From NCBI GenBank assembly GCA_903903765.1, contig CAIVAH010000158.1, positions 1-10,806 of the forward strand: 10,806 nucleotides of DNA, read 5' to 3'. Under the pieces are notes generated by a model. The model worked only from the letters and a program-made list of their open reading frames with translations, searched no databases and was not told the DNA's origin. Below, one piece after another: positions 1 through 10,806 of this stretch (position 1 is the first letter of the stretch; each line of letters starts with the position of its first letter). The DNA comes from an uncultured Methylococcaceae bacterium. GTDB lineage: Bacteria > Pseudomonadota > Gammaproteobacteria > Methylococcales > Methylomonadaceae. Position numbers and translations under genes: made by a program.

Positions 1-40
1 AATTTTAAAAAGTGTGTCATATGGCACACTTTTTAAAATT
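1..40. promoter_or_regulatory. Long palindrome, candidate activator-binding (enhancer) site, copy 1
   Basis: Arms 1-16 and 25-40 are exact reverse complements. The 8-base centre TCATATGG is itself palindromic except for one T/G pair, so the whole 40 bp is nearly symmetric around 20/21. The core GTGTGTCATATGGCACAC recurs at 2173-2198 ahead of the paralogous module. It lies about 185 bp upstream of the -12 element of a sigma-54 promoter, a normal distance for an enhancer-binding protein. An RNA copy would also form a hairpin with a U-run, so it could double as a terminator for a gene left of the window. Confidence 0.65.
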
Positions 41-191: not shown

Positions 192-207
192 TGGCACGGT
201 GTCTGCT
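192..207 (+). promoter_or_regulatory. Sigma-54 (-24/-12) promoter of module 1
   Basis: TGGCACGGTGTCTGCT fits the RpoN consensus TGGCACGNNNNTTGCW. The invariant GG (193-194) and GC (205-206) are separated by ten bases, as required. Transcription would start near 217-219, giving a leader of about 97 nt before the ATG at 315. The equivalent position in module 2 (2349-2364) carries the same element, which strongly supports function. Confidence 0.85.
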
Positions 208-314: not shown

Positions 315-1262
315 ATGAAAATTTCTACTAAAGCTTTAAAAATTGCTGCATTAGGTGTTAGTGCAGTTACTATGATGGTTGCTACACAAGAAGCATCAGC
401 TCATGCATCTATCTTAAACACTGTTAACAGTGGTAAGGCTATTGGTTCAACTTCATTCTCTCGTATTGGTGTTAACCATGCTTGTAACGGAACTACTCCA
501 GTAACTCCAATTGTTGCGCAAAGTGCGGTTATTCCAACTATTAATCCTACTATTTCAGTTGCTACTGTTACTAATAACGTTGCAGGTGCTTATACTGTGC
601 AAACAACTTCTCCAGCAAACACAGTGGGCAACTACTTGTTTACTTCATCTGCAGCTACTACGCCTGTGGCTACTTTGGCTGGTGCCTTTCAATTAGTACA
701 AAGCAAAGACGTATTTAGTTCTTCTATCGAACAACGCAATGCTGCTAATGCAGTAATCGGTTGGGTATCTACTAAAGGTGGCTTACAAATTAACGAACAC
801 GGTGAAGTTCCATTTCGTTTCACAAACGTATTCTTCGGTGCTAACTCTTGCGTACATGACGTAGTAGTTCAATTAGCGGTTGCTGATATTTGTAAAACAA
901 CTTCAAAACCACCCTTTACAACTTTAGCTAAATCACAGGGTGTTGAGTTATGGATTGATAACACTTTAGCATCACTTCCTACAGAGTTTCCAGTGGCGGC
1001 GATTGAAAATAGTGCGGGTACTACTAACTTAACGATCAACCGTGATCCTATCCAAGATCCATATCCAGCTTCTTGTGCTAATGCTCCAATTGCTTCAGCA
1101 GCAACAAACTTAGCAGCTACAACTCAAGCTAACGCTGTGACCGGTTATACAGCAGGTGCGACGCCATTAACTTCAGTTAAAATCCAACCGTCTGCTGATG
1201 ATTTAAAGCAATTACAATTCCCAGGTTGGGGAACTCCAGTTTCTGGCAACACTTTCCAATAA
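315..1262 (+). CDS. Exported YcnI/DUF1775-like protein, predicted N-terminal-His metal-binding protein (copy 1)
   Basis: 315 aa. Residues 1-29 form a signal peptide (KALK, hydrophobic core, then EASA). Cleavage after Ala29 would leave His30 as the mature N-terminus. The segment VNHACNG (His55, Cys57) followed by a VxIP-like strand, and the later VADICK...GVELWID (Cys193, Trp213), resemble the HGCDG and C-x-G-x-RW landmarks of the DUF1775/YcnI family. That family includes a protein that binds Cu(II) through its mature N-terminal His. Cys57, Cys179, Cys193 and Cys254 are all kept in the paralogue at 2467-3423 and probably form two disulfides. The chain is longer than typical DUF1775 and ends in the conserved motif LQFPGWGTPVSGNTF. 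Expression is probably driven by the sigma-54 promoter at 192. The family link was made by eye and is tentative; copper binding is inferred. Confidence 0.6.
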   Translation: MKISTKALKIAALGVSAVTMMVATQEASAHASILNTVNSGKAIGSTSFSRIGVNHACNGTTPVTPIVAQSAVIPTINPTISVATVTNNVAGAYTVQTTSPANTVGNYLFTSSAATTPVATLAGAFQLVQSKDVFSSSIEQRNAANAVIGWVSTKGGLQINEHGEVPFRFTNVFFGANSCVHDVVVQLAVADICKTTSKPPFTTLAKSQGVELWIDNTLASLPTEFPVAAIENSAGTTNLTINRDPIQDPYPASCANAPIASAATNLAATTQANAVTGYTAGATPLTSVKIQPSADDLKQLQFPGWGTPVSGNTFQ

Positions 1263-1274
1263 GAGTTAGTTAGT

Positions 1275-1333
1275 GTTGGCCTTCGGTCGCACTTGGTTTG
1301 TATAAAAAACTAAGTGCCGTTAAAGGCAGCAAC
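1275..1333 (+). other. Intercistronic stem-loop, module 1
   Basis: An 11-pair stem (1289-1299 with 1307-1317, one G-U pair, 7-nt loop) is extended by GCCTT/AAGGC (1279-1283 with 1323-1327) and GTTG/CAAC (1275-1278 with 1330-1333). No T-run follows, so it is not an ordinary terminator. It begins 12 nt after the stop of the first gene, and a differently sequenced hairpin occupies the same place in module 2. It probably protects the 3' end of the upstream message, giving unequal output of the two genes (inference). Confidence 0.6.
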
Positions 1334-1372
1334 TTCAACTATCACATTAATGGAATTTTTAAGAGATAATTT

Positions 1373-1960
1373 ATGAAAAATAAACTATTTATAACGCTAT
1401 TATTTAGCGTATTGTTGTCAGGAGCAGCGCAAGCTGATCTTTTTGCACCGGATGTGCAAGCAGGTCTTGCTACGGTTGATGCTGAGTTTTTAACTACTGA
1501 TCAATCAGATTATTATGGGTTTAATGTAACGACAGCAGGTGATGTTAATTTATACACTAGCTCGATCGCTCCTTATGATCCAAATTTGACTTTTTGGTCT
1601 GCGCCTTCAGCAACTGTGGATTGGACTTCAGCAGATCCAACTGTTGGTTGGACGCCAGTTAACTTTAATGATGATTCGTCCTCATTAAGTTTTTTTGAGT
1701 CTGGCGCTAATGCAAAAGATGCTCAGTTAAAAGTAACTTTAGATGTTGGTAACTATTTTGCGAGAGTATCAGGCAATAGTCAGTTGTTTGCTTATCAATT
1801 TAATGTTGATACGGTTAATGTCGCAGGCACGGGTGCTTTGGTTGCTAACGTTGCTCAAGTTGCGTCTGTGCCATTGCCAGCAGCAGTATGGATGTTTGCA
1901 AGTGGCTTGATTGGTTTTTTAGGTTTTTCAAAAAGAAAAGCACAAAATAAAGCAATCTAG
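1373..1960 (+). CDS. VPLPA-CTERM sorted surface protein with PPC-like beta domain (copy 1)
   Basis: 195 aa. The signal peptide runs to about residue 21 (SGAAQA before DLF). A beta-rich body follows, with the block QSDYYGFNVTTAGDVNLYTS, then DPNLTFW, FNDDSSS and LDVGNYFARVSG. This order resembles the bacterial pre-peptidase C-terminal / DVUA0089-type fold common in PEP-CTERM proteins. The tail at 166-195 is a classic sorting signal: VPLPAAVW, a hydrophobic segment, then the basic cluster SKRK. Such tails are processed by an exosortase (XrtD for the VPLPA type), so the protein should reach the cell surface or extracellular matrix. It lies 110 nt after the YcnI-like gene with the stem-loop between. 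Roughly four fifths of residues match the copy at 3535-4113, a closer match than between the YcnI-like partners. The start is shared in context (GAGATAATTTATG) with copy 2. The precise role is unknown. Confidence 0.8.
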   Translation: MKNKLFITLLFSVLLSGAAQADLFAPDVQAGLATVDAEFLTTDQSDYYGFNVTTAGDVNLYTSSIAPYDPNLTFWSAPSATVDWTSADPTVGWTPVNFNDDSSSLSFFESGANAKDAQLKVTLDVGNYFARVSGNSQLFAYQFNVDTVNVAGTGALVANVAQVASVPLPAAVWMFASGLIGFLGFSKRKAQNKAI

Positions 1961-1970
1961 TTAAAATAAG

Positions 1971-2028
1971 CACCTGCACTTCGTTTATTGTCATTGAATG
2001 ATGATAATCGGTGTGTGGGTGTTTTTTT
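1971..2028 (+). terminator. Intrinsic terminator of module 1
   Basis: CACCTGCAC (1971-1979) pairs with GTGTGGGTG (2013-2021) over nine pairs including two wobbles. An inner stem, ATTGTCAT with ATGATAAT, lies inside, and seven T residues follow (2022-2028). The same architecture with compensating changes lies after the VPLPA gene of module 2 at 4124-4183. Confidence 0.8.
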
Positions 2029-2061
2029 ATGCGAGTACATATAAATGAAATCTAAAATTTC

Positions 2062-2104
2062 AGGGTAAACAAGTTAATTCCAATGCTTGTTTGCCCTTTT
2101 TTTT
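2062..2104 (+). terminator. Second, stronger intrinsic terminator
   Basis: AGGGTAAACAAG (2062-2073) pairs with CTTGTTTGCCCT (2086-2097): twelve pairs with a single G-U, a 12-nt loop and an eight-base T-run (2097-2104). It lies 34 nt beyond the first terminator and insulates the module 2 control region. No gene lies between the two, and module 2 has no equivalent second terminator before the next gene. Confidence 0.85.
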
Positions 2105-2145
2105 GCCTAAAATTTAAAGTGTTTAACCAGAACTGTTTTTTTTAG

Positions 2146-2171
2146 AAAGTGTGTCATATCACGTATTTTTT
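2146..2171. promoter_or_regulatory. Degenerate (half) copy of the activator palindrome
   Basis: The left arm AAAGTGTGTCATAT (2146-2159) is intact. The right arm has lost symmetry (CACGTAT instead of GACACAC). Its centre at 2157/2158 is 28 bp from the centre of the perfect site at 2185/2186. This looks like a weaker secondary site for the same regulator, as is common for enhancer-binding proteins that form oligomers. Confidence 0.5.
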
Positions 2172-2172
2172 T

Positions 2173-2198
2173 AAAAGTGTGTCATATGACACACTTTT
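2173..2198. promoter_or_regulatory. Perfect 26-bp palindrome, candidate activator-binding site, copy 2
   Basis: The sequence is symmetric about 2185/2186 with core GTGTGTCATATGACACAC flanked by AAAA and TTTT. It matches the site at 1-40 and lies about 178 bp upstream of the -12 element at 2362-2363. Two terminators already close the previous unit upstream, so a terminator role here is unnecessary. A dimeric or hexameric sigma-54 activator is the likely ligand (inference). Confidence 0.7.
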
Positions 2199-2283
2199 TT
2201 GAAGTGAACTATTATGATTTCAAAGGTTGCATGTATTAGCTAAAAAGATAATAAAAATTACTGCTAATATTTTTTTTATTTAA

Positions 2284-2296
2284 TATCAATGCATTA
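2284..2296 (+). promoter_or_regulatory. Candidate IHF site between enhancer and sigma-54 promoter
   Basis: TATCAATGCATTA matches the IHF consensus WATCAANNNNTTR at every defined position and is preceded by a T/A-rich run (2269-2283). It lies between the palindrome at 2173-2198 and the promoter at 2349-2364, the standard place for IHF to bend DNA so the activator meets the polymerase. Copy 1 has no equally good match. Confidence 0.55.
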
Positions 2297-2348
2297 AGCG
2301 GTTTTTTTGAGGCTAATTGCGCCCGTGAAGAAAGGTGCAATAACAATT

Positions 2349-2364
2349 TGGCATAGAGTCTGCT
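2349..2364 (+). promoter_or_regulatory. Sigma-54 (-24/-12) promoter of module 2
   Basis: TGGCATAGAGTCTGCT has the invariant GG (2350-2351) and GC (2362-2363) separated by ten bases. It shares TGGCA and GTCTGCTT with the module 1 promoter although flanking DNA has diverged. The start of transcription should be near 2374-2376, giving a leader of about 92 nt. Confidence 0.8.
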
Positions 2365-2448
2365 TATAAGAAATTATCCTCGGATCAAATTCGTTTGTAG
2401 TTTAACGATGCCGATCCAAGGGTATATACACAAATAATTTTAATCAAC

Positions 2449-2462
2449 GTCCTCAGGAGGAC
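2449..2462 (+). promoter_or_regulatory. Shine-Dalgarno hairpin in leader of module 2
   Basis: The inverted repeat is identical to that at 297-310, with AGGAGG at 2455-2460 and the ATG at 2467. It is embedded in the 36-nt block 2430-2465, which is identical to 278-313. Exact conservation of untranslated sequence while the rest of the upstream region has drifted suggests a functional leader. Confidence 0.6.
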
Positions 2463-2466
2463 TTAT

Positions 2467-3423
2467 ATGAAATTTTCTGCTAAAGCTTTAAAAATTGCTG
2501 CAATAGGTGTTAGCGCAGTTACTATGATGATTGCTACACAAGAAGCGTCAGCTCACGCTACTTTTTTAAATACGGTTAATAGTGGTACTGCAATTGGTGC
2601 AACTTCTTTCTCTAGACTTGGTCTTAACCATGCGTGTAACGGCGCTGCGTCAGGGATCTCATATCCCATCATAGCTCAAAGTGTTGCTATTCCAACTATA
2701 AATCCAATTATTTCTCGTGCGGATGTTGCTTCTGGAGTTTTAGGTAATTACTCAGTATTGCCTGCTGCTACTGTTGCTGACTACCTATTCACTACAGAAG
2801 CGAGTACTGTTGCTGTAACAACTTTGGCAAATAGATTTGGATTAGTACAATCTAAAGATGTATTTAATTCGCAAATTGAGCAACGTAGTCCATTATCAAC
2901 GACAACAAGTCATGGTAAAACGACTAATGACGTAGTAGGTTGGGTTTCTACTAAAGGTAACTTACAGATTAACCTAAATGGTGAAGTACCTTTCCGTTTT
3001 GCTAACGTATTCTTTAAGAAGACATCTTGTTTAAGAAATGTTACGGTTCAAATTCCGGTAGTTGATATTTGTAAAACATCTGCTAAACCAGGAACATTTG
3101 TCGCAGGTACTTTAGCTAAAGCCAGTGGTGGCGTTGAAATATGGGTTGATCCAGCTTTAACAACTCCATCATGGTTACCACAAACCTCGATTGAGGCTGG
3201 CGCAGGTACTACAAACTTTACCATCAACCGTGATCCAATTGCTAATCCATATCCAGCAAGTTGCGCGGGTGCACCAATTGCGGCAAATGGCGTGTTAACA
3301 GGTACTTTCACATCAGGTGCTGATGCTTTATTTGATATCAAAATTCAGCCATCAGCTGACGATATTAACAAATTACAGTTCCCAGGATGGGGAACTCCAG
3401 TTGCTGGCAACACTTTCGAATAA
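2467..3423 (+). CDS. Exported YcnI/DUF1775-like protein, predicted N-terminal-His metal-binding protein (copy 2)
   Basis: 318 aa, paralogue of the protein at 315-1262. The signal peptide is nearly identical (residues 1-29, ending EASA), so His30 again becomes the mature N-terminus. Conserved landmarks are LNHACNG (His55, Cys57), Cys188, the VVDICK motif (Cys202), GVEIWVD (Trp226), Cys266 and the ending LQFPGWGTPVAGNTF. The middle diverges, and copy 2 has an insertion after the QIEQRS segment (STTTSHGKTTND) that adds a further His. The resemblance to DUF1775/YcnI is by motif order only. If correct, mature His30 would contribute amine and imidazole ligands to Cu(II). The gene is controlled by its own sigma-54 promoter at 2349 and followed by its own VPLPA-CTERM partner, so the two pairs may be tuned differently. 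Confidence 0.6.
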   Translation: MKFSAKALKIAAIGVSAVTMMIATQEASAHATFLNTVNSGTAIGATSFSRLGLNHACNGAASGISYPIIAQSVAIPTINPIISRADVASGVLGNYSVLPAATVADYLFTTEASTVAVTTLANRFGLVQSKDVFNSQIEQRSPLSTTTSHGKTTNDVVGWVSTKGNLQINLNGEVPFRFANVFFKKTSCLRNVTVQIPVVDICKTSAKPGTFVAGTLAKASGGVEIWVDPALTTPSWLPQTSIEAGAGTTNFTINRDPIANPYPASCAGAPIAANGVLTGTFTSGADALFDIKIQPSADDINKLQFPGWGTPVAGNTFE

Positions 3424-3434
3424 TAGTTTAGTTA

Positions 3435-3490
3435 GGACGTCTTTAGTTGCACGTGGTTTTTTTGTAAAAGCGACTGCAATTAAAGCATCC
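3435..3490 (+). other. Intercistronic stem-loop, module 2
   Basis: CTTTAGTTGCA (3441-3451) pairs with TGCAATTAAAG (3475-3485), with a G-U in the middle. The stem continues inward through GT/AC and TTTT/AAAA and outward through GGA/TCC (3435-3437 with 3488-3490). No T-run follows the outer stem. It occupies the same place as the stem-loop at 1275-1333 although the primary sequence differs, which argues for conserved structure. Confidence 0.55.
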
Positions 3491-3534
3491 TATATTAAGG
3501 CTATCCGATTAATCGAATACTAACGAGATAATTT

Positions 3535-4113
3535 ATGAAAAATAAACTATTTACTGCGCTGTTGTTTAGCGTATTTTTATCAGGAGTTGCGAGAGCTGAT
3601 CTTTTTACACCTGATGTGCAAGCGGGTCTTGTTACGATTGATGCTGAGTTTTTAGATGTTAATCAGTCAGACTGGTTTGGTTTTGATGTTGCGACTACTG
3701 GTGATGTGAACTTATACACTAGTTCTATCGCACCTTATGATCCAAATTTAACATTGTGGAAAGCATCATCATCAACAGTAGATTGGACTGTAGCAGACCC
3801 AACTGCAGGTTGGACGCCAGTTAGTTTTAATGATAACACAGCGTCATTGAGTTTCTTTGAAAGTGGTGCGAATGCAAAAGACGCTCAGTTAAAATTAACT
3901 TTAGATATTGGTAATTATTTTGCAAAAGTGTCAGGTCAATCTCAATTGTTTGCTTATCAATTTAATGTTGATACAAATAATGTGGTTGGTACGGGAGCAT
4001 TGGTTGCAAATGTAGCGGCGGTGCCATTGCCAGCAGCGGTATGGATGTTCGCAAGTGGCTTGATTGGTTTCTTAGGTTTTTCAAAAAGAAAAACACAAAA
4101 TAAATCAATTTAG
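3535..4113 (+). CDS. VPLPA-CTERM sorted surface protein with PPC-like beta domain (copy 2)
   Basis: 192 aa, close paralogue of the protein at 1373-1960. The signal peptide ends at ARA before DLF. The same blocks follow: GDVNLYTSSIAPYDPNLT, GWTPVSFNDN, SFFESGANAKDAQLK and LFAYQFNVDT. The sorting tail at 163-192 is VPLPAAVW, hydrophobic segment, SKRK. The main indel is three residues lost just before the tail (NVAQVAS in copy 1 against NVAA here). The body probably forms a beta-sandwich of the PPC/DVUA0089 type (inference from DPNLTLW and LDIGNYFAKVSG). It lies 111 nt after its YcnI-like partner. Stronger conservation here than in that partner suggests an interaction surface or a structural role. 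The exosortase that would process the tail is not in this window. Confidence 0.8.
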   Translation: MKNKLFTALLFSVFLSGVARADLFTPDVQAGLVTIDAEFLDVNQSDWFGFDVATTGDVNLYTSSIAPYDPNLTLWKASSSTVDWTVADPTAGWTPVSFNDNTASLSFFESGANAKDAQLKLTLDIGNYFAKVSGQSQLFAYQFNVDTNNVVGTGALVANVAAVPLPAAVWMFASGLIGFLGFSKRKTQNKSI

Positions 4114-4123
4114 TTAAACTAAT

Positions 4124-4183
4124 ACACCTGTGCTTTGTTTATTATTATTGAATGATAACAAATGAAGTGCGGGTGTGTTTTTT
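4124..4183 (+). terminator. Intrinsic terminator of module 2
   Basis: ACACCTGTGC (4124-4133) pairs with GTGCGGGTGT (4167-4176) through ten pairs, three of them wobbles. An inner TTTGTT/AACAAA stem lies inside, and T residues follow at 4178-4183. The next gene's Shine-Dalgarno begins only six bases later, so read-through must occur, or a promoter must lie inside, if the downstream genes depend on this transcript. Confidence 0.75.
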
Positions 4184-4199
4184 ATTTAAGGAGGTAGAA

Positions 4200-4952
4200 G
4201 TGATTAAAAAAATTATAGTTGCAATTATTGCAGTTGCAAGTTCAGTTAGTCTGGCACAGGCCGCTATTACACCAATAAATTCAACATTTAATAGTTCCAA
4301 TATAAACAAAATTGATACCTATTTTATTCAAGCGAATGGCACTGGTAATGTTGATATTTTTTTACAATCACAATTAAATACTGAACTTGGATTTGATTTA
4401 CCCATTGATTTAACGTTAACGGTTTGGGAGAAAGTCGGTAATTTATGGTCTTTGATAGGCGCTAATGCGGGTGCGGCAAGAACTTTAGCTGATCAAGGTG
4501 CTACCACTATATACGGACAAACTGTTTTGCAGTGGAGCGGAACTTTTGGTGATGGCATGGCCGACCCTGGTTTATCGCTTAGTATGACTAGCGGTAAGAC
4601 TTATATGGTTGTTAATTCTGAAGAGAAAAATGGTCCAACTTCTTTGTCAACAGCAAGTAGTGTTACAAATCAGACTACGTATGAAGTAGGTTTTACCGAG
4701 GCTTTGGGGCAAACAATTGCAGTTTCTTCAAGCAGTCCTGGTGATTATAGTAGTGCATTTAAAGGGTTAAGTGACTTGTCTGGCTCTGGTGAAATTTATT
4801 CGTTAAATACCCCCTACACGTTAACGATTAACGGAAATGTGTCTTTAACCGCAGCTCCAATTGCGGCTGTGCCATTACCTGCAGCAGTTTGGTTATTTGC
4901 TAGTGTTTTAGCAGGGTTTGGTTTTTTTGGTAAGAAAAAGGATTACGGTTAG
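4200..4952 (+). CDS. Third VPLPA-CTERM surface protein (GTG start)
   Basis: 250 aa from a GTG start. A near-perfect Shine-Dalgarno AAGGAGG (4188-4194) sits five bases upstream. The in-frame ATG at 4152 lies inside the preceding terminator hairpin and would spoil the signal peptide, so it is rejected. From the GTG, residues 1-21 make a clean signal peptide (IKK, hydrophobic core, AQA before AIT). The body has DTYFIQANGTGNVDIFL and DLTLTVWEKVGNLW, echoing the smaller VPLPA proteins' pattern of an early beta domain, and SSSPGDYSSAFKGLSDLSGS further on. The tail at 224-250 is VPLPAAVWLF, hydrophobic segment, GKKK. It is likely delivered to the surface by the same exosortase as its two neighbours. 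It opens the second half of the cluster; its function is unknown. Confidence 0.75.
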   Translation: MIKKIIVAIIAVASSVSLAQAAITPINSTFNSSNINKIDTYFIQANGTGNVDIFLQSQLNTELGFDLPIDLTLTVWEKVGNLWSLIGANAGAARTLADQGATTIYGQTVLQWSGTFGDGMADPGLSLSMTSGKTYMVVNSEEKNGPTSLSTASSVTNQTTYEVGFTEALGQTIAVSSSSPGDYSSAFKGLSDLSGSGEIYSLNTPYTLTINGNVSLTAAPIAAVPLPAAVWLFASVLAGFGFFGKKKDYG

Positions 4953-4997
4953 TGATTGAGTAATGTTTTTTCTAATAAAGGTTTCTGATATTCCTTC

Positions 4998-5026
4998 TTG
5001 TTATGTCTGCCTTGTTTCAGTATTTT
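4998..5026 (+). promoter_or_regulatory. Weak candidate sigma-70 promoter
   Basis: TTGTTA (4998-5003) and TATTTT (5021-5026) are separated by 17 bp, each with four of six consensus positions. Transcription would begin near 5033, just ahead of the ATG at 5048. In AT-rich DNA this may be chance. It is listed because the 95-nt gap after 4952 is the largest in the right-hand gene run. Confidence 0.25.
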
Positions 5027-5047
5027 TATCATTTACAAATAAGAATT

Positions 5048-5872
5048 ATGATTTTAAAAAAAGTCTTTTGTTTCGTAATTTTATATTCGTGCCTATTAGA
5101 TTTTACTGTGGCTGATTTAAGTTCGAATAAGATTCCTTTTACTGAGCTTAATAACTCAGACTCTATAAATATCGAGCAACTTTCACCCAGTCTATTTAAC
5201 TTAAAAACTGATAATGTGGTTTTATCAGCGGTATTGAAGGAGTTTAGTAAAAAAACTGGGACTATTATTCACTATAATAATGATTATGAAGATAATATTT
5301 CGACCGTAAATTGTGCTGGCGATTTCGTTGCTGTTATGTCTTGTTTGTTAGGCGAAAATTATAGTGTGATAGTTCGTCATCAAGAATCTGTTCAATCAAG
5401 CTTAGTGATGCCGGAAATAGCTGAGATATGGTTAGTACAAAAAACAAAATTTGAGCAGTCTACAGATCATAAAAAAATCATAAATGAGAGTAAAAATGAG
5501 CTTATTGAAAGTTTTTTACTTATGGCTAAAGATCCTTACCAGAGAAAAGAAGCTATCGCGCAGTTGGCAGTTTTAGCCTCAAATAATGATTTTTTAGTTA
5601 AAAATGAGTTAATGCAAGCCATGAGTGATAAGGATCCAGAGATTAGAGCTCAGGCAATCTTTGGATTGGGTAAATATCATCAAAACGACTCATTGGCGTA
5701 TTTAAGACTGGCCCTGTCTGATGAAAGTTTAGATGTGCGTTTGATGGCGTTGGAACAGTGTACTGATTATCCAGTACTGTTAGAGCAAGCATTAAACGAT
5801 GATGAAGCTGCGGTTCGAGATACTGCGAGTATGAAATTAAGGGTATTGAGTAAACAACATAATAAAAATTAA
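5048..5872 (+). CDS. Exported protein with STN-like domain and HEAT repeats
   Basis: 274 aa from the ATG at 5048. An in-frame ATG at 5003 would add 15 residues ahead of a good signal peptide and is less likely. Signal residues 1-22 (ILKK, hydrophobic, TVA before DLS). Residues about 50-115 (FNLKTDNVVLSAVLKEFSKK, followed by TGTIIHYN and a CLLGENYSVIVR segment) resemble the secretin/TonB short N-terminal (STN) domain. From about 150 to the end are HEAT-type helical repeats, for example DKDPEIRAQAIFGLGKYHQ and DESLDVRLMALEQC. Both parts mediate protein contacts, so a periplasmic scaffold or adaptor linking an envelope complex is plausible (inference). It is followed 13 nt later by the next gene, so co-transcription is likely. 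No catalytic motif is seen. Confidence 0.7.
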   Translation: MILKKVFCFVILYSCLLDFTVADLSSNKIPFTELNNSDSINIEQLSPSLFNLKTDNVVLSAVLKEFSKKTGTIIHYNNDYEDNISTVNCAGDFVAVMSCLLGENYSVIVRHQESVQSSLVMPEIAEIWLVQKTKFEQSTDHKKIINESKNELIESFLLMAKDPYQRKEAIAQLAVLASNNDFLVKNELMQAMSDKDPEIRAQAIFGLGKYHQNDSLAYLRLALSDESLDVRLMALEQCTDYPVLLEQALNDDEAAVRDTASMKLRVLSKQHNKN

Positions 5873-5885
5873 TGAGGAATAATGA

Positions 5886-6377
5886 ATGAATAATATTAAA
5901 GCGGCAGTATTTTTGGGGTTATCAGTTTTTTTAAGTGCTTATGCGACTAATGTCTTATCACATACTTATATTGGCACCATAGGTGCCTTGGGCGGTCCAA
6001 GTGCTACTGATCTATTAAGAGTTGATTGTTTTTTAGATCCTGGGTTTTCTCAAACGCCTACTCATTCATTGTTTATTGATATTAATGATGGTACGACCAC
6101 AGGTGGCAAATTAACTGCCCATGCGACCGTTTATAATACGGGTGCTTATGGAAAGGCCGTATCAGTAACAGATCCAAAAGGAGCAGATGGTACTGCAAGT
6201 GTATCAAAATTATTAAATGTGGTAACGCCAACGGATGTTCAAGATGTAAGTTTTTATATTACAGTAAGTCATACCGATGCGGGCGCAGAAAATTACCTAC
6301 TTGATTATCATTGTCAAGATAAATTTGGTCAGCATACTGGGACCGGAGAACCAATTACTGTGTTGCAAAGTCAATAG
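5886..6377 (+). CDS. Small exported protein with predicted mature N-terminal His
   Basis: 163 aa. The start is set by GAGG at 5874-5877; an ATG at 5882 in another frame stops after three codons. Signal peptide residues 1-25 end VLS, which fits the -3/-1 rule, so the mature chain would begin at His26 (HTYIGTIG). Two cysteines, Cys48 in RVDCF and Cys143 in DYHCQ, are likely to be disulfide-bonded. The body is beta-rich with several further His residues (THS, AHA, SHT, YHC, QHT). I do not recognise the family. The N-terminal His mirrors the two YcnI-like proteins upstream and suggests, by analogy only, a metal-binding role. It precedes a TlpA-like thioredoxin by 23 nt, which fits a need for disulfide control. 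It is probably in one transcript with its neighbours. Confidence 0.7.
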   Translation: MNNIKAAVFLGLSVFLSAYATNVLSHTYIGTIGALGGPSATDLLRVDCFLDPGFSQTPTHSLFIDINDGTTTGGKLTAHATVYNTGAYGKAVSVTDPKGADGTASVSKLLNVVTPTDVQDVSFYITVSHTDAGAENYLLDYHCQDKFGQHTGTGEPITVLQSQ

Positions 6378-6400: not shown

Positions 6401-6922
6401 ATGCTACTAAAAAAATCATTAGAGTCAATTTGTTTATTTTTGTTTATTTTGTTTGCTGATAAATGTTATGCAACTGATTTAAATTTAAAAGCACCGCAAT
6501 GTATATTGACGTCTTTGAATGATGCGAAAACTATAGAATTGAAGCAATTTGAAGGTAAGGTAGTTTACGTTGATTTTTGGGCCTCTTGGTGTGGTCCCTG
6601 TGCAACTTCTTTTCCTTTTATGAATAATTTAAGCAGAGATTTAAAGGCACAAGGCTTAGAGGTGATTGGTGTAAATCTAGATGAAAATCTAGAGGAATCT
6701 AAACAGTTTCTGGAGCAACAGCCCGCGAACTTTATTATAGCTTCTGATCCAGAGCAACAATGCGCAAAACAATTTGGTCTTAAAGCAATGCCTTCTTCTT
6801 ATCTAATTGATAGAAAAGGCTTGGTAAGGCATGTGCATATAGGTTTTAGGCCTGCTGAGGCGCTTGAGTTTAGGGCTTTAGCTGAAAAACTATTAGCAGA
6901 GCCAATAGATAACTCCAAATGA
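6401..6922 (+). CDS. TlpA/ResA-like thioredoxin-fold thiol-disulfide oxidoreductase
   Basis: 173 aa, the normal size for a periplasmic TlpA-like protein. The signal peptide runs to about residue 24 (CYA before TDL). The fold markers are in order: beta strand KVVYVDFWASW, active site Cys64-Gly-Pro-Cys67 (WCGPC), GVNLDE, and the cis-proline Pro131 in KAMPSSYLID. It transfers electrons to disulfides or keeps cysteines reduced in the periplasm. Unlike most relatives it has extra cysteines at 34 and 121, besides Cys11 and Cys22 in the signal peptide. Likely clients in the neighbourhood are the Cys-containing exported proteins and the Cys-rich DUF4266 tail (inference). TlpA-like genes next to DUF4266 and DUF3570 genes are a pairing I recall from other genomes but cannot verify here. 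Confidence 0.9.
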   Translation: MLLKKSLESICLFLFILFADKCYATDLNLKAPQCILTSLNDAKTIELKQFEGKVVYVDFWASWCGPCATSFPFMNNLSRDLKAQGLEVIGVNLDENLEESKQFLEQQPANFIIASDPEQQCAKQFGLKAMPSSYLIDRKGLVRHVHIGFRPAEALEFRALAEKLLAEPIDNSK

Positions 6923-6977
6923 TTAGATAGAGTAAATTGTGTTTATTTACGTTTTTAATGTATTAATAGGTTCTAGA

Positions 6978-7187
6978 GTGACTAGAATCTTTTTTTTTAT
7001 ATCCATAAGTATTTTTTGCATAGCCTGTGTACATCTAGAACCTTGGGAGCGAAGAAATTTGGCTAAACCTCAAATGGCTATTGACGCTTTTCCAATGCTA
7101 AATGAGATGCGTGCACATAATTTTGGTAGCCGAGAAGCAGGTTCAGGATCAAGTTCGAGTAGTGGTGGTGGCTGTGGCTGCTATTAA
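6978..7187 (+). CDS. DUF4266 small lipoprotein with Gly/Cys tail
   Basis: 69 aa from GTG 6978, which gives a compact lipoprotein signal (TR, hydrophobic run, CIAC) with Cys17 as the lipidated residue. A GTG at 6939 would give 82 aa with an extra hydrophobic stretch and is the alternative. The lipobox has Cys at -3, which is unusual. Residues 21-33, EPWERRNLAKPQM, are the signature I associate with DUF4266. The chain then has a GSREAGSG stretch and ends in a serine/glycine run and GGGCGCY (63-69). The closely spaced C-terminal cysteines suggest metal binding, redox chemistry or modification (inference). It overlaps the start of the next gene by about 14 nt, so translation is probably coupled. 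The family function is not established as far as I know. Confidence 0.85.
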   Translation: MTRIFFFISISIFCIACVHLEPWERRNLAKPQMAIDAFPMLNEMRAHNFGSREAGSGSSSSSGGGCGCY

Positions 7188-9783
7188 AGCAAAAAAAACA
7201 AGTATACAGGCATTAACTGCCGCGGCATTGTTGTTACCAGGGTTGGTTTTTCCTATTGTAAATGCGGCTGAAGATGATGAAATGGATTTTCAGTTTAGTC
7301 GCTATCAAGAAGGTAAAAGAAATTTAGGTGGTGTGCCTAATACTAAAAAACCAATAGAGGTTAATAGTTTGCAAGGTGGTGCAAAATTTAGCCTATCTGA
7401 TCGAGTTAAGTTTGCCTTCAAATATACCCAAGATACTTGGTCGGGCGCAACTCCTATAGGAACTGCACCGTTATTATTTGGCGGAAATAAACAGTTAATG
7501 AGTAATGGAACAGTAACGGGCGCATCACCGATTATTAGTTCAAATTATTACGTTGATAAAAATACTCTGCAAGCTCAAAAGCTAGTAGATTATACTCCAG
7601 ATGGTATTGCTTTGTTTTCCGCAAATAATCAATTAGTACATACCATATCTGTTGCTTCACCAGAAACGCGTCGACAAGGTGATTTTAATTTAACTTACGA
7701 ATGGGATGAGGCAGCTATCACTGCAGGTGGAGGTACTTCGGTTGAGAGAGATTATGAATCAAATTTTGGTAACGTGGCGGCAAGATTTGATTTTAATCAA
7801 AAGTTAACCAGTTTAAATCTGGGTTTAAGTTACACGAATAGTTATACGAATGCTTTGATAGATCATGATGCGAGTCCGTATATCGATAAAAATGCTTATT
7901 TAGCCACTGGCCAATATCAGGCAAGTCCTTCAGGTGAGCGTATTCAGGCTGGGAGACAGGACTGGGCGCCTAATATAGGTGTTACCCAAATATTGGGTGA
8001 GAATACATTAATACAAAATTCATTGGGTTTTAGTCGCGCTACAGGTTATATGGCAAACCCCTATAAAGTTGTTGAGGTTGGTTTTGTCGACCCTAATCAA
8101 ACTCCAGACATTATTGATCCTTTTGGTGATGGTGAAAATTATTTTGGGGATGGTCGTCCTGAAAATATAGTTAATGCTGATTTAAAGGCTTTTTTGGAGA
8201 AGCGACCAACTCAACGAGACCAATTCAATGTCAGTTCTCGATTTGTGCAGTATATAAAGCCTTTAGATGCGGCTTTACATTTTGATTATCATTTTTCGTC
8301 TGATGATTGGGGTATTGATTCGCATACTTTTGCTGCTGATTGGATGCAACCTATAGGTGCAGGTTGGACCCTAACGCCAAGGGTGCGTTATTATTCTCAA
8401 GAAGCCGCTGATTTTTATACGCCTTATCTAATTATTAATCAGAAAAGTATCTCCGGAACTACCGGTAAGCCCAGTCCTGATTACCTAAAATTGCCCAATA
8501 ATTATTCGAGTGATCAGCGTTTGTCAGGTTTTGGAGCGTTAAGTGGCGGGATTTCGCTAAATAAGAAGTTTGCTAAAAGTGTAACCTTAGAAACTGGTTT
8601 TGAATATTATACCCATGATGGCGATTTGAAGTTGGGTGGCGGTGGTGAAGCTAGTTACGCTAATTTTAATTATTATGTTGTTAATGCGTCTATTAAAGTT
8701 AATTTAGCCTCTTTAAGTCACAGTATTGCTACTGAAAGTCATGCAGAACATCACCATCACCACGATCATGGTGCGCCAATTCCCGCTGGAGTCATGTTTG
8801 GACATATGTTGGATAAGTCTGGCAAGTTTATGGTGGGGTATCGCTATATGCATGATTCCCAAGCAGGATCTATGTTGCATGGACAAGATGCAGTTGCTGA
8901 CGCTACCCTAGTTAATCAAGGCTGTGGATCTGCACCTATTGATAAATGTTTTATTACGCCAAAAGAAATGAATATGCATATGCATATGTTAGATTTAATG
9001 TATGCGCCAACTGATTGGTTAAACTTAATGCTAATGCCACAGTTTGTGGATATGAATATGTCGATGCGGCAAATTGCTAATCCAGCAGATTTTGGACTTT
9101 CTGCTTTTAGCGCTAATAAGTTGTCTCATATTACGCATCATGTTGATGCGGGTCATAGCACCGGTGGTGTAGGTGATACGGGTATGTATGCGCTATTTAA
9201 ATTATGGAACACTGATAATAATCATCTGCATTTAACGGTGGGTACGACAGCACCTACCGGCTCTGTTGATAATATGCTCCGACGTAATCATCAAGTGGAG
9301 GGTGGTTATAATGATTATGGCATGCAACTAGGTAGTGGTACTTGGGATTTTAAATCTAATTTGACTTATACAGGGCATTGGGACGATTGGTCTTGGGGAG
9401 CACAAGTCGGTGGCACTCAACGCTTACAAGACAAAAATAGTTCTGGTTATTCTTTAGGTGATGTATTTCAGTCCACGGCTTGGGGAAGTTATCAGTGGTT
9501 TAACTGGTTGTCCTCTTCTGTGCGAGGTGTTTATACCGAGCAGGGCAAAATTAATAATCAATATAATGGTTTAGTTCAAGCTTTAGGCCCCATGGATTAT
9601 CCTAAGAATTATGGTGGTCGTTATTGGGATGTGGGCTTTGGTCTTAATGCTTTTGTACCTACGGGTAATTTAGTGGGTAATAATTTAAGCGTAGAGTGGT
9701 TAGAGCCCGTCAGTACCGATGTAAATGGCTATCAGTTAGATCGTGATGGCGCTTTATCAGCAACTTGGAGCTATATGTTTTAG
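7174..9783 (+). CDS. Twin outer-membrane barrel: DUF3570 domain fused to Met/His-rich PF13557-like barrel
   Basis: 869 aa from GTG 7174, chosen because it gives a proper signal peptide (KAKK, hydrophobic core, VNA before AED). An upstream in-frame ATG at 7102 would begin with a reading of the DUF4266 tail region and is unlikely. Residues about 33-510 match the DUF3570 pattern (FQFSRYQEGKRNLGG, alternating aromatic beta strands) and close with an NFNYYVVNASIKV strand. A linker follows with a His cluster at about 523-532 (HAEHHHHHDH). Residues about 540-869 form a second barrel of the kind annotated as transporter/phenol_MetA_deg: FGHMLDKSGKFMVGYRYMHD, a Met/His-rich stretch at 599-631 (MNMHMHMLDLM, MPQFVDMNMSM), LTVGTTAPTGSVD, and a terminal Phe. 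Cys584 and Cys592 could pair. It is typically an outer-membrane location; the Met/His content points to metal, copper above all (inference). Two barrels in one chain is unusual. Confidence 0.8.
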   Translation: MAAIKAKKTSIQALTAAALLLPGLVFPIVNAAEDDEMDFQFSRYQEGKRNLGGVPNTKKPIEVNSLQGGAKFSLSDRVKFAFKYTQDTWSGATPIGTAPLLFGGNKQLMSNGTVTGASPIISSNYYVDKNTLQAQKLVDYTPDGIALFSANNQLVHTISVASPETRRQGDFNLTYEWDEAAITAGGGTSVERDYESNFGNVAARFDFNQKLTSLNLGLSYTNSYTNALIDHDASPYIDKNAYLATGQYQASPSGERIQAGRQDWAPNIGVTQILGENTLIQNSLGFSRATGYMANPYKVVEVGFVDPNQTPDIIDPFGDGENYFGDGRPENIVNADLKAFLEKRPTQRDQFNVSSRFVQYIKPLDAALHFDYHFSSDDWGIDSHTFAADWMQPIGAGWTLTPRVRYYSQEAADFYTPYLIINQKSISGTTGKPSPDYLKLPNNYSSDQRLSGFGALSGGISLNKKFAKSVTLETGFEYYTHDGDLKLGGGGEASYANFNYYVVNASIKVNLASLSHSIATESHAEHHHHHDHGAPIPAGVMFGHMLDKSGKFMVGYRYMHDSQAGSMLHGQDAVADATLVNQGCGSAPIDKCFITPKEMNMHMHMLDLMYAPTDWLNLMLMPQFVDMNMSMRQIANPADFGLSAFSANKLSHITHHVDAGHSTGGVGDTGMYALFKLWNTDNNHLHLTVGTTAPTGSVDNMLRRNHQVEGGYNDYGMQLGSGTWDFKSNLTYTGHWDDWSWGAQVGGTQRLQDKNSSGYSLGDVFQSTAWGSYQWFNWLSSSVRGVYTEQGKINNQYNGLVQALGPMDYPKNYGGRYWDVGFGLNAFVPTGNLVGNNLSVEWLEPVSTDVNGYQLDRDGALSATWSYMF

Positions 9784-9835: not shown

Positions 9836-10806
9836 ATGAGTAATAAACCTCTCCAAACCAGTGGGCGGGTCGGCCTTTTTTTGACCGTTTTTATGACAGG
9901 ATCAGCTGTTATGGTAATTGAGCTTTTAGGTACACGGATGATTGCGCCTTTTTATGGCGCAAGTTTGTATGTTTGGTCCTCTTTAATTTCTGTCACGATG
10001 ATAGCCTTAGCAATTGGTTATTTTGTGGGGGGTAAATGGGCAGACTGCGCTAAGCGTACTGGTTTATCCTTAATTATTGCTTTAGCTGCTTTTTTAACAC
10101 TGATTATTCCATGGGTGGCCCGTCCTGTATTATTAGCAACGGATCCATTAGGTTTGCGAGCGGGTGCCTTTGTCAGTGCTTTAGTGCTATTTTTACCGAG
10201 TTTAACCTTCTTAGGGATGGTGGGGCCTTTTGCCATTAAGTTGGGAACTTCTAGATTAGAAGGTGTGGCCTCAAGTGCGGGCACACTTTATGCGGTTAGT
10301 ACTCTAGGTAGTGTCGTGGGTACTTTAGTGTTAGGGTTTTTCTTGTTTCCTTTGGTGGGTTCAAGAGAGATTTTTATGGGCGTGGGGATTATTTTGTTCT
10401 TTTTGGCATTGGTTGTTGCTTTTTTTGAACAACAAAATTTGGGAATTAAAGCTTCGTTGTTGCCATCTGTATTGCTCGTTGTGCTGGGTTTAAGTTTGGT
10501 GCCAAAAATCTCAGGTGCTGGTCATGTTTATGATCCTAACAGTAAATTTGATGTAAGGTCAGAGCATGAGAGTTTATATGGTTGGGTGCGAGTCATGGAT
10601 CATAAGACTAAAGATCTTAGAGTATTAACTTCTGATGCTTCTGCGATTGGGGCAGAAGGTATTTCTACGGGTGAAAATAAGCTAACGTATCAAAATATTG
10701 TGGGTTTGTTACCTGCGTTAGCTCCAGATATGCATAGAGCCTTAATTGTGGGTTTGGGTGCTGGTAAAATGGTTAATGTCTTGCATGACAAATATGGCAT
10801 GGTAGT
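9836..10806 (+). CDS. Fused membrane/spermidine-synthase-like protein (partial, 3' end beyond window)
   Basis: 323 complete codons are visible from the ATG at 9836 (TAGG about 8 nt upstream), and the frame is open to the window end. The N-terminal ~225 residues are hydrophobic with about six to seven membrane segments, starting with the family-typical FMTGSAVMVIELLGTRMIAP and later SSAGTLYAVSTLGSVVGT. The following soluble part has RVMDHKTKDLRVLTSD and a Rossmann nucleotide-binding motif ALIVGLGAGKM at 302-312, the aminopropyltransferase or SAM-binding motif I. Full members are usually 500 or more residues, so much of the catalytic domain is missing here. The true substrate is unknown, since many of these are not genuine spermidine synthases. 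It lies 52 nt after the twin-barrel gene with no clear terminator between, so it may belong to the same operon. Confidence 0.85.
   Translation, partial: MSNKPLQTSGRVGLFLTVFMTGSAVMVIELLGTRMIAPFYGASLYVWSSLISVTMIALAIGYFVGGKWADCAKRTGLSLIIALAAFLTLIIPWVARPVLLATDPLGLRAGAFVSALVLFLPSLTFLGMVGPFAIKLGTSRLEGVASSAGTLYAVSTLGSVVGTLVLGFFLFPLVGSREIFMGVGIILFFLALVVAFFEQQNLGIKASLLPSVLLVVLGLSLVPKISGAGHVYDPNSKFDVRSEHESLYGWVRVMDHKTKDLRVLTSDASAIGAEGISTGENKLTYQNIVGLLPALAPDMHRALIVGLGAGKMVNVLHDKYGMV

Follow-up and report, generated by a model that had tools for sequence, protein, structure and literature searches.

The closest described counterpart of the two larger proteins considered here is YcnI, a DUF1775 protein, which binds Cu(II) through a mono-histidine brace formed by its N-terminal histidine and Glu50 and cushioned by Trp137 (PMC8424229). 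YcnI is reported to act with YcnJ in copper acquisition, and under copper limitation a Trp137Phe exchange in the Bacillus subtilis protein resembled deletion, whereas the effect of His27Ala was small (PMC12154828). The histidine, the glutamate and the tryptophan occur together in about 60% of DUF1775 proteins; most of the others, which are mainly proteobacterial, lack the glutamate (PMC8424229). A second related system is formed by DUF3570, DUF4266, thioredoxin and ApbE, described as a hybrid flavin/thiol electron-transfer system of uncertain role (eLife 2021, PMC8238504), in which DUF3570 has two [ST]GA[ST] flavinylation sites and DUF4266 a CxC tail. Here, we describe a locus in which predicted N-terminal-histidine proteins are joined to such a redox set. 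It occupies a stretch of 10,806 bases (the window), which makes up the whole of contig C158 in an assembly of 1.92 Mb (80% complete) from an uncultured Methylococcaceae bacterium; all five named relatives are Methylococcales, Methylococcaceae or Methylobacter metagenome-assembled genomes.

We consider it probable, though far from certain, that the locus encodes exported proteins that bind a metal with a free N-terminal histidine (His1) as primary ligand, within a methanotroph system that captures and reduces a metal, probably copper. The conservation, co-variation, gene order and promoter motifs described below were read directly from sequence.

Two exported families with a predicted N-terminal histidine

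Three open reading frames (ORFs) of the window, on the plus strand like every gene of the cluster, encode predicted exported proteins that would begin with histidine after removal of the signal peptide:

315-1262, plus strand: YcnI-like exported protein, paralogue a; predicted mature start HAS (residue 30), cleavage site EASA/HAS
2467-3423, plus strand: YcnI-like exported protein, paralogue b; His30 (mature residue 1), His55-Ala-Cys57 and Trp226; cleavage site EASA/HAT; structure predicted
5886-6377, plus strand: small exported protein; His26 is mature residue 1 if cut at VLS/H (reading VLS/HTY); His142 and His150

An earlier note on this DNA had pointed to these three proteins, and all three sites could be read back as sequence predictions. 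Because the products of 315-1262 and 2467-3423 are paralogues (66% identical), they represent two independent families rather than three, referred to below as the large and the small family. Within the large family, His30 (His1) is kept in all 37 rows that reach this column of the near alignment (A1, 38 rows). The same holds for 55/55 such rows of the wider alignment (A5, 56 rows, mean column identity 25%), the remaining row, P0076, being a fragment without a start; His55, Cys57, Pro76, Cys188, Cys202 and Trp226 are invariant in 56/56.

On the strength of this conservation we reject chance as the origin of His1, and the background of exported proteins leans the same way. A crude home-made signal-peptide rule, applied to the window and 17 retrieved loci (L numbers), predicted 54 distinct exported ORFs, 10 of which start with histidine; judged by coordinates, all 10 belong to the two families. 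The rule demands an ATG start and overlooked other members of both families as well as two MauG-like proteins. The latter (L109:13269-15554 and L112:9412-11691) are of the di-haem cytochrome c peroxidase/MauG kind, with a Pfam CCP_MauG match for the L109 protein, and their mature form seemingly also starts with histidine (VFA/HGPTPV). By these predictions, His1 is uncommon among exported proteins, yet not confined to the two families. The earlier argument that three such proteins in one neighbourhood are hard to ascribe to chance is not supported in that form, because its count of three enters one paralogue pair twice; the case rests on conservation and not on there being three.

For the small window protein, the signal-peptide rule favoured a rival cleavage, AYA/T, five residues earlier. 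Most of its relatives read xA/H at the VLS/H column, for which reason we prefer VLS/H, and the predicted site is less certain than those of the large proteins.

Probable kinship of the large family with YcnI

Among the entries listed in a structure comparison of the predicted model of the 2467-3423 product, the two best matches are YcnI. The third is a Nocardia protein, which we take to be a DUF1775 member. In this model, His1 falls on the N-terminal histidine of YcnI, and the model suggests a YcnI-type (cupredoxin-like) fold for the large proteins.

Sequence evidence for the kinship is independent of the model. Using hhalign, we compared 55 of the 56 A5 rows (P0076 omitted) with 10 DUF1775 proteins from Pseudomonadota, drawn from 13 loci (L020 was set apart, and L024 and L025 were omitted as near copies). 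The score was 34.5 (E 1.5e-4), with a confident part that spans His1 to the HGC motif of DUF1775. Control comparisons stayed lower: 100 column shuffles reached at most 19.3 (E 0.044), and the reversed profile scored 16.5. A low-threshold alignment path pairs His1 with His1, HxC with HGC, Cys202 with a DUF1775 cysteine and Trp226 with a DUF1775 tryptophan; the first pairing arises partly by construction, since both sequence sets were cut at the histidine. With the first three residues removed, the score was 29.1 (E 0.0011), and the three distant members alone also matched DUF1775 (E 0.0011).

Several results count against this kinship. The near subfamily alone did not match DUF1775 (E 0.14), and a forced global alignment of the large family with DUF1775 misaligns. 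PF07987 (DUF1775) was found in 0/56 large-family members at E <= 1, the large-family profiles recovered no YcnI among Protein Data Bank (PDB) sequences, and a Foldseek search with the model gave no match at E <= 0.001. The model itself has a mean predicted local distance difference test score (pLDDT) of 72.5, with residues 43-46 and 59-61 below 50, so that the geometry of the site is only predicted.

Of the features that characterize DUF1775, the N-terminal histidine is predicted in 55/55 rows, and the conserved tryptophan (Trp137 of YcnI) corresponds to Trp226 in 56/56, through the low-threshold alignment only. Glu50 has no counterpart in the large family, and the HxC motif stands at about its place. 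HGC occurs in all 10 DUF1775 sequences used, with its histidine at mature position 23 in nine and at 25 in L030, where the cleavage rule cut two residues early. As the HxC histidine is common to the large family (56/56) and proteobacterial DUF1775 (10/10), we take it to serve as ligand in place of Glu50. His55, proposed earlier as a possible second ligand, is this invariant HxC histidine, and the comparison with YcnI and its brace drawn at that time gains strong support from the top structure matches and from the alignment of His1, HxC and Trp226. Candidate second coordinating histidines for a T-shaped brace of the LPMO/CopC kind would be His55 in the large proteins and His142 and His150 in the small one.

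We regard the large family as a remote relative of YcnI, with a probably similar mode of action, and not as a PF07987 member. PF07987 itself was detected in 0/61 genomes of the order, in 1/75 of a sample of the class and in 11/150 of a sample of the phylum. Compared with DUF1775, the window proteins are longer (about 289 residues when mature, against a domain of 146 positions), lack Glu50 and carry extra loops and cysteines. They are also placed differently, beside DUF3570, TlpA and DUF4266, whereas DUF1775 often neighbours CopD (PMC12154828).

A co-varying histidine triad in the small family

Close relatives of the 5886-6377 product are few (three matches), but a profile that includes distant members finds the small family in 136/301 genomes of the order. 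Its alignment has 66 rows: the window protein and 65 of 72 distinct matches from 93 retrieved sequences, seven having been omitted as too short or too weak, so that the rows do not cover all 136 genomes. Five rows are cut by locus ends, L080 and L091 are multi-domain and misaligned, L036 duplicates the window and L089 duplicates L055. Positions 26, 142 and 150 are all histidine in 45/66 rows and all non-histidine in 12/66; two rows are mixed (L059, His-His-Glu; L081, Asp-His-His). This co-variation suggests that His1, His142 and His150 together form a single metal site.

The 12 rows without the triad histidines retain both cysteines, which suggests intact paralogues in which all three site residues were lost together, in fewer than 12 events, since several of them are related. 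Such paralogues (L015:4020-4445, L016:7894-8322, also L039, L041, L051, L054-L058, L062 and L081) often stand in tandem with intact ones and are perhaps metal-free partners. The model of the small protein, built from four sequences, has a pLDDT of 67.6, and its structure matches are common beta-sandwiches. Pfam searches with nine members gave nothing above cut-off, including N-terminal-histidine families such as DUF6702 and DUF4198; the single weak match was PF23623 (E 0.06).

Gene order and the redox set

The two families occur together. The distant profile (A3) finds the large family in 113/301 genomes of the order, and the small family is present in 108 of these 113, compared with 28/188 genomes without the large family (Fisher p 6e-48, ignoring kinship among genomes). 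Neighbourhoods were counted among the places listed, namely the 67 best for the large family and 150 each for the small family and DUF3570. At least 41 of the 67 strongest large-family places have a small-family gene within 10 kb and at least 37 have DUF3570, and 116/150 listed small-family places have a listed DUF3570 within this distance. DUF3570, present in 198/301 genomes of the order, is more widespread than the His1 families. The remaining genes of the window are as follows:

1373-1960, plus strand: exported protein with PEP-CTERM-like tail (PF07589 E 0.0015, VPLPA-CTERM E 5e-4, neither reaching cut-off)
3535-4113, plus strand: PEP-CTERM-like protein resembling the 1373-1960 product (tail match, sequence similarity)
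4152-4952, plus strand: third PEP-CTERM-like protein (weak tail match)
5003-5872, plus strand: exported HEAT-repeat protein (HEAT_2 E 9e-16; N-terminal STN-like part by eye)
6401-6922, plus strand: exported TlpA/ResA-type thioredoxin (WCGPC)
6939-7187, plus strand: DUF4266 small protein with C-terminus GCGCY (PF14086 E 8.5e-17)
7102-9783, plus strand: DUF3570 protein (PF12094 E 1.1e-114) with flavinylation-type motifs SGAT 114 and TGAS 139; its true start is probably downstream of 7102
9836-10804 (contig end), plus strand: membrane protein, no Pfam match for this piece, presumably of the spermidine-synthase-like kind

The order YcnI-like, two PEP-CTERM-like, HEAT, small, TlpA, DUF4266 and DUF3570 is held in the four relatives long enough to show it (L003, L004, L005 and L007); in L007 the spacing is wider and there are two small genes, and L006 stops after the first gene. 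In the distant subfamily, L017 has the order YcnI-like, small, one additional gene, HEAT, TlpA, DUF4266, DUF3570 and ApbE; in L016, ApbE is flanked by two DUF3570 units, and a small His1 gene separates HEAT from TlpA. A membrane protein of the 9836-10804 type comes after DUF3570 in four loci (the window, L003, L004 and L016) and after ApbE in L005.

Like the described flavinylation sets, whose electron chain lies outside the cytoplasm, the window has adjoining genes for a DUF3570 protein with two [ST]GA[ST] motifs, a DUF4266 protein with a C-terminal CxC and a thioredoxin-like protein (PMC8238504). It differs from them in the added His1 proteins, in the position of ApbE outside the window and in the size of DUF3570, which has 893 residues against a domain of about 420. 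By eye, its second half holds a His-rich stretch and many methionines and histidines, and a histidine run (HAEHHHHHDHG, encoded at 8740-8772) lies between the DUF3570 domain and this half. Two ApbE copies are found elsewhere in the host genome, and ApbE lies in or adjoins the cluster in L005, L016 and L017. Cytochrome proteins of about 700 residues are encoded near the cluster in L016 (176-2284, minus strand) and in L109 (373-2511, minus strand; Pfam CCP_MauG). These presumably resemble CorB/SACCP of copper-starved methanotrophs.

Proposed function and choice of metal

In the capture-and-reduction system that we favour, each large protein would hold one Cu(II) enclosed by His1 with its amine, the HxC histidine (substituting for Glu50) and Trp226, and the small protein would bind metal with His1, His142 and His150. 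Placed at the surface or in the periplasm, the His1 proteins would catch scarce Cu(II). A flavinylated DUF3570, supplied through the thiol carriers TlpA and DUF4266, would then reduce Cu(II) to Cu(I) or free it, its His/Met-rich part may handle Cu(I), and the copper would be handed on for uptake to supply methane monooxygenase. That the metal is copper, that electrons flow in this direction and that the system serves uptake and not detoxification are our inferences.

Several observations tell against this system as a whole. Among the 67 strongest large-family places, on contigs that are short, 26 are without a listed small-family gene and 30 without a listed DUF3570 within 10 kb. The window, a whole contig that is possibly cut, lacks ApbE, on which flavinylation depends. 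For DUF3570, possible links to iron have been reported, with 25 clusters containing VIT1, and the main text of that report has 0 occurrences of copper and 0 of methanotroph (PMC8238504). The copper assignment is the main weak point.

The alternative nearest to this reading keeps the His1 sites as real and assigns them to another metal (nickel, zinc or iron), or to detoxification or storage at the surface instead of copper uptake; we regard it as rather unlikely. It draws on the signal-strapping N-terminal-histidine proteins, which bind Cu2+ or Ni2+ (PMC12537917), on the occasional position of DUF3570 sets beside an iron transporter (PMC8238504), and on the window proteins, among which no CopA, CopC or CopD domain was found. 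The nearest fold, YcnI, is by contrast that of a Cu(II) protein (PMC8424229). Copper is our preferred metal on two grounds, the Cu(II) binding of the closest fold family and the methanotrophic nature of the hosts. As Methylococcales, these hosts need copper for methane monooxygenase. The earlier suggestion that the histidines point to copper is supported in part, through the YcnI comparison and the brace reading, but an N-terminal histidine by itself does not indicate copper (PMC12537917).

Promoter signals and an apparent PEP-CTERM link

Both large genes and their homologues in L003-L007 are preceded by a sigma-54-type -24/-12 site, about 114-132 bases before the start codon (7/7 in a script scan). 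Similar sites were found by eye before 3/3 distant genes (L015, L016 and L017), further upstream in L015 and L016. The regulatory features of the window are:

13-28, no strand: palindrome TGTGTCATATGGCACA, resembling an upstream activating sequence (UAS-like), upstream of the first YcnI-like gene; 1 mismatch to TGTGTCATATGACACA
192-207, plus strand: sigma-54-type -24/-12 promoter TGGCACGGTGTCTGCT, hexamers TGGCAC/CTGCTT
2150-2193, no strand: two UAS-like palindrome copies (TGTGTCATATCACGTA and TGTGTCATATGACACA), the first with more than 2 mismatches, the second (2178-2193) exact
2349-2364, plus strand: sigma-54-type promoter TGGCATAGAGTCTGCT, from the sequence scan

The first promoter reads TGGCAC-N5-CTGCTT, and its hexamers equal those of the mapped RpoN promoter of the PEP-CTERM gene pepA (PMC9850573). 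The window, L003 and L004 carry the palindrome TGTGTCATATGACACA upstream of the promoter, and L017 has a variant of it. At up to 2 mismatches, it has 1 to 18 copies in six genome entries, two of which (G464 and G521) share coordinates and were counted as one genome; read backwards as a control, it has 0 copies in all six. A single 37-kb stretch of G521 holds 15 of its 18 copies, several of which are close to genes whose products, by eye, have PEP-CTERM-like tails; in G427, an exosortase gene lies in the stretch between two copies. Copies in the window (13-28 and 2150-2193), L109, L110, L112 and L113 are near PEP-CTERM-like, exosortase and YcnI-like genes, and the MauG-like genes of L109 and L112 lie in palindrome-rich regions. 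The palindrome may be the enhancer site of a PrsR-type regulator. Its role as a copper operator was considered and dropped, since it is often near PEP-CTERM-like genes. The promoter sites, and the palindrome near PEP-CTERM-like and exosortase genes, suggest that the large genes are part of a PEP-CTERM/sigma-54 regulon. A short hairpin, GTCCTCAGGAGGAC (297-310 and 2449-2462), contains the ribosome-binding site of both large genes; L003-L005 preserve it, and L006 and L007 have variants. Compared with shuffled sequences, it gains nothing in folding stability (z 0.31 and 0.62), and it was set aside.

These signals bear on a further explanation, in which the YcnI-like proteins act mainly in a sigma-54-controlled PEP-CTERM/exopolysaccharide surface layer and any metal binding is structural. 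The sigma-54-type sites, the palindrome beside PEP-CTERM-like genes and around an exosortase gene, the match to the pepA promoter (PMC9850573) and the fact that each YcnI-like gene of the window is directly followed by a PEP-CTERM-like gene all fit such a role. The distant genes in L015, L016 and L017, however, adjoin a small His1 gene and DUF3570, no PEP-CTERM-like tail was seen there by eye, and the conserved His1, HxC and tryptophan are metal-site residues; we consider this explanation improbable. Very improbable, finally, is that the histidines and the redox set form an enzyme, such as a copper oxygenase or peroxygenase resembling lytic polysaccharide monooxygenases (LPMOs), and not a metal transport system: histidine-brace proteins can be oxygenases (PMC10952591) and the cluster provides an electron chain, but the best fold matches are to YcnI, a binding protein, no LPMO is among the entries listed, from which whole families may be absent, and the window proteins showed no carbohydrate-binding or oxygenase domain.

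Relation to other systems and significance

The proposed capture of copper by His1 proteins has parallels in other systems. Like the window proteins as we read them, CorA/MopE are surface copper proteins of gammaproteobacterial methanotrophs, but their site consists of two histidines and kynurenine and is not described in that report as an N-terminal-histidine site (PMC3912023). The A5 profile gave 0 matches among PDB sequences at E <= 10, and CorA/MopE may still share a fold with the large family. Anglerases, DUF6702 and DUF4198 are also N-terminal-histidine metal binders, and anglerases have been proposed to catch metal outside the cell (PMC12537917). The small family differs from them in His142 and His150, which are its own, in its partner genes and in having no Pfam match above cut-off. 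Titles and abstract openings listed for the open-licence papers searched contained no description of these families and no link of DUF3570 clusters to copper or methanotrophs. The N-terminal-histidine metal site and the redox set are thus known kinds, whereas their combination, the hidden YcnI branch and the histidine triad family look new. In a bolder form, which we put forward only tentatively, the locus would be a so far undescribed Methylococcales acquisition machine for metal (copper), in which a hidden YcnI branch, a His1-His-His triad family with a new fold or site and a flavinylated DUF3570 acting as outer-envelope Cu(II) reductase replace DUF1775/CopD and methanobactin.

The way in which many gammaproteobacterial methanotrophs obtain the copper for their methane monooxygenase is, to our knowledge, not settled. 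The gene set described here is widespread in the order (small family in 136/301 and large family in 113/301 genomes) and offers a testable candidate for copper gathering. It also suggests a candidate function for the DUF3570/DUF4266 redox clusters, the role of which has been called uncertain (PMC8238504). Two unnamed families of N-terminal-histidine proteins are added, in one of which the co-variation of three histidines predicts the ligands.

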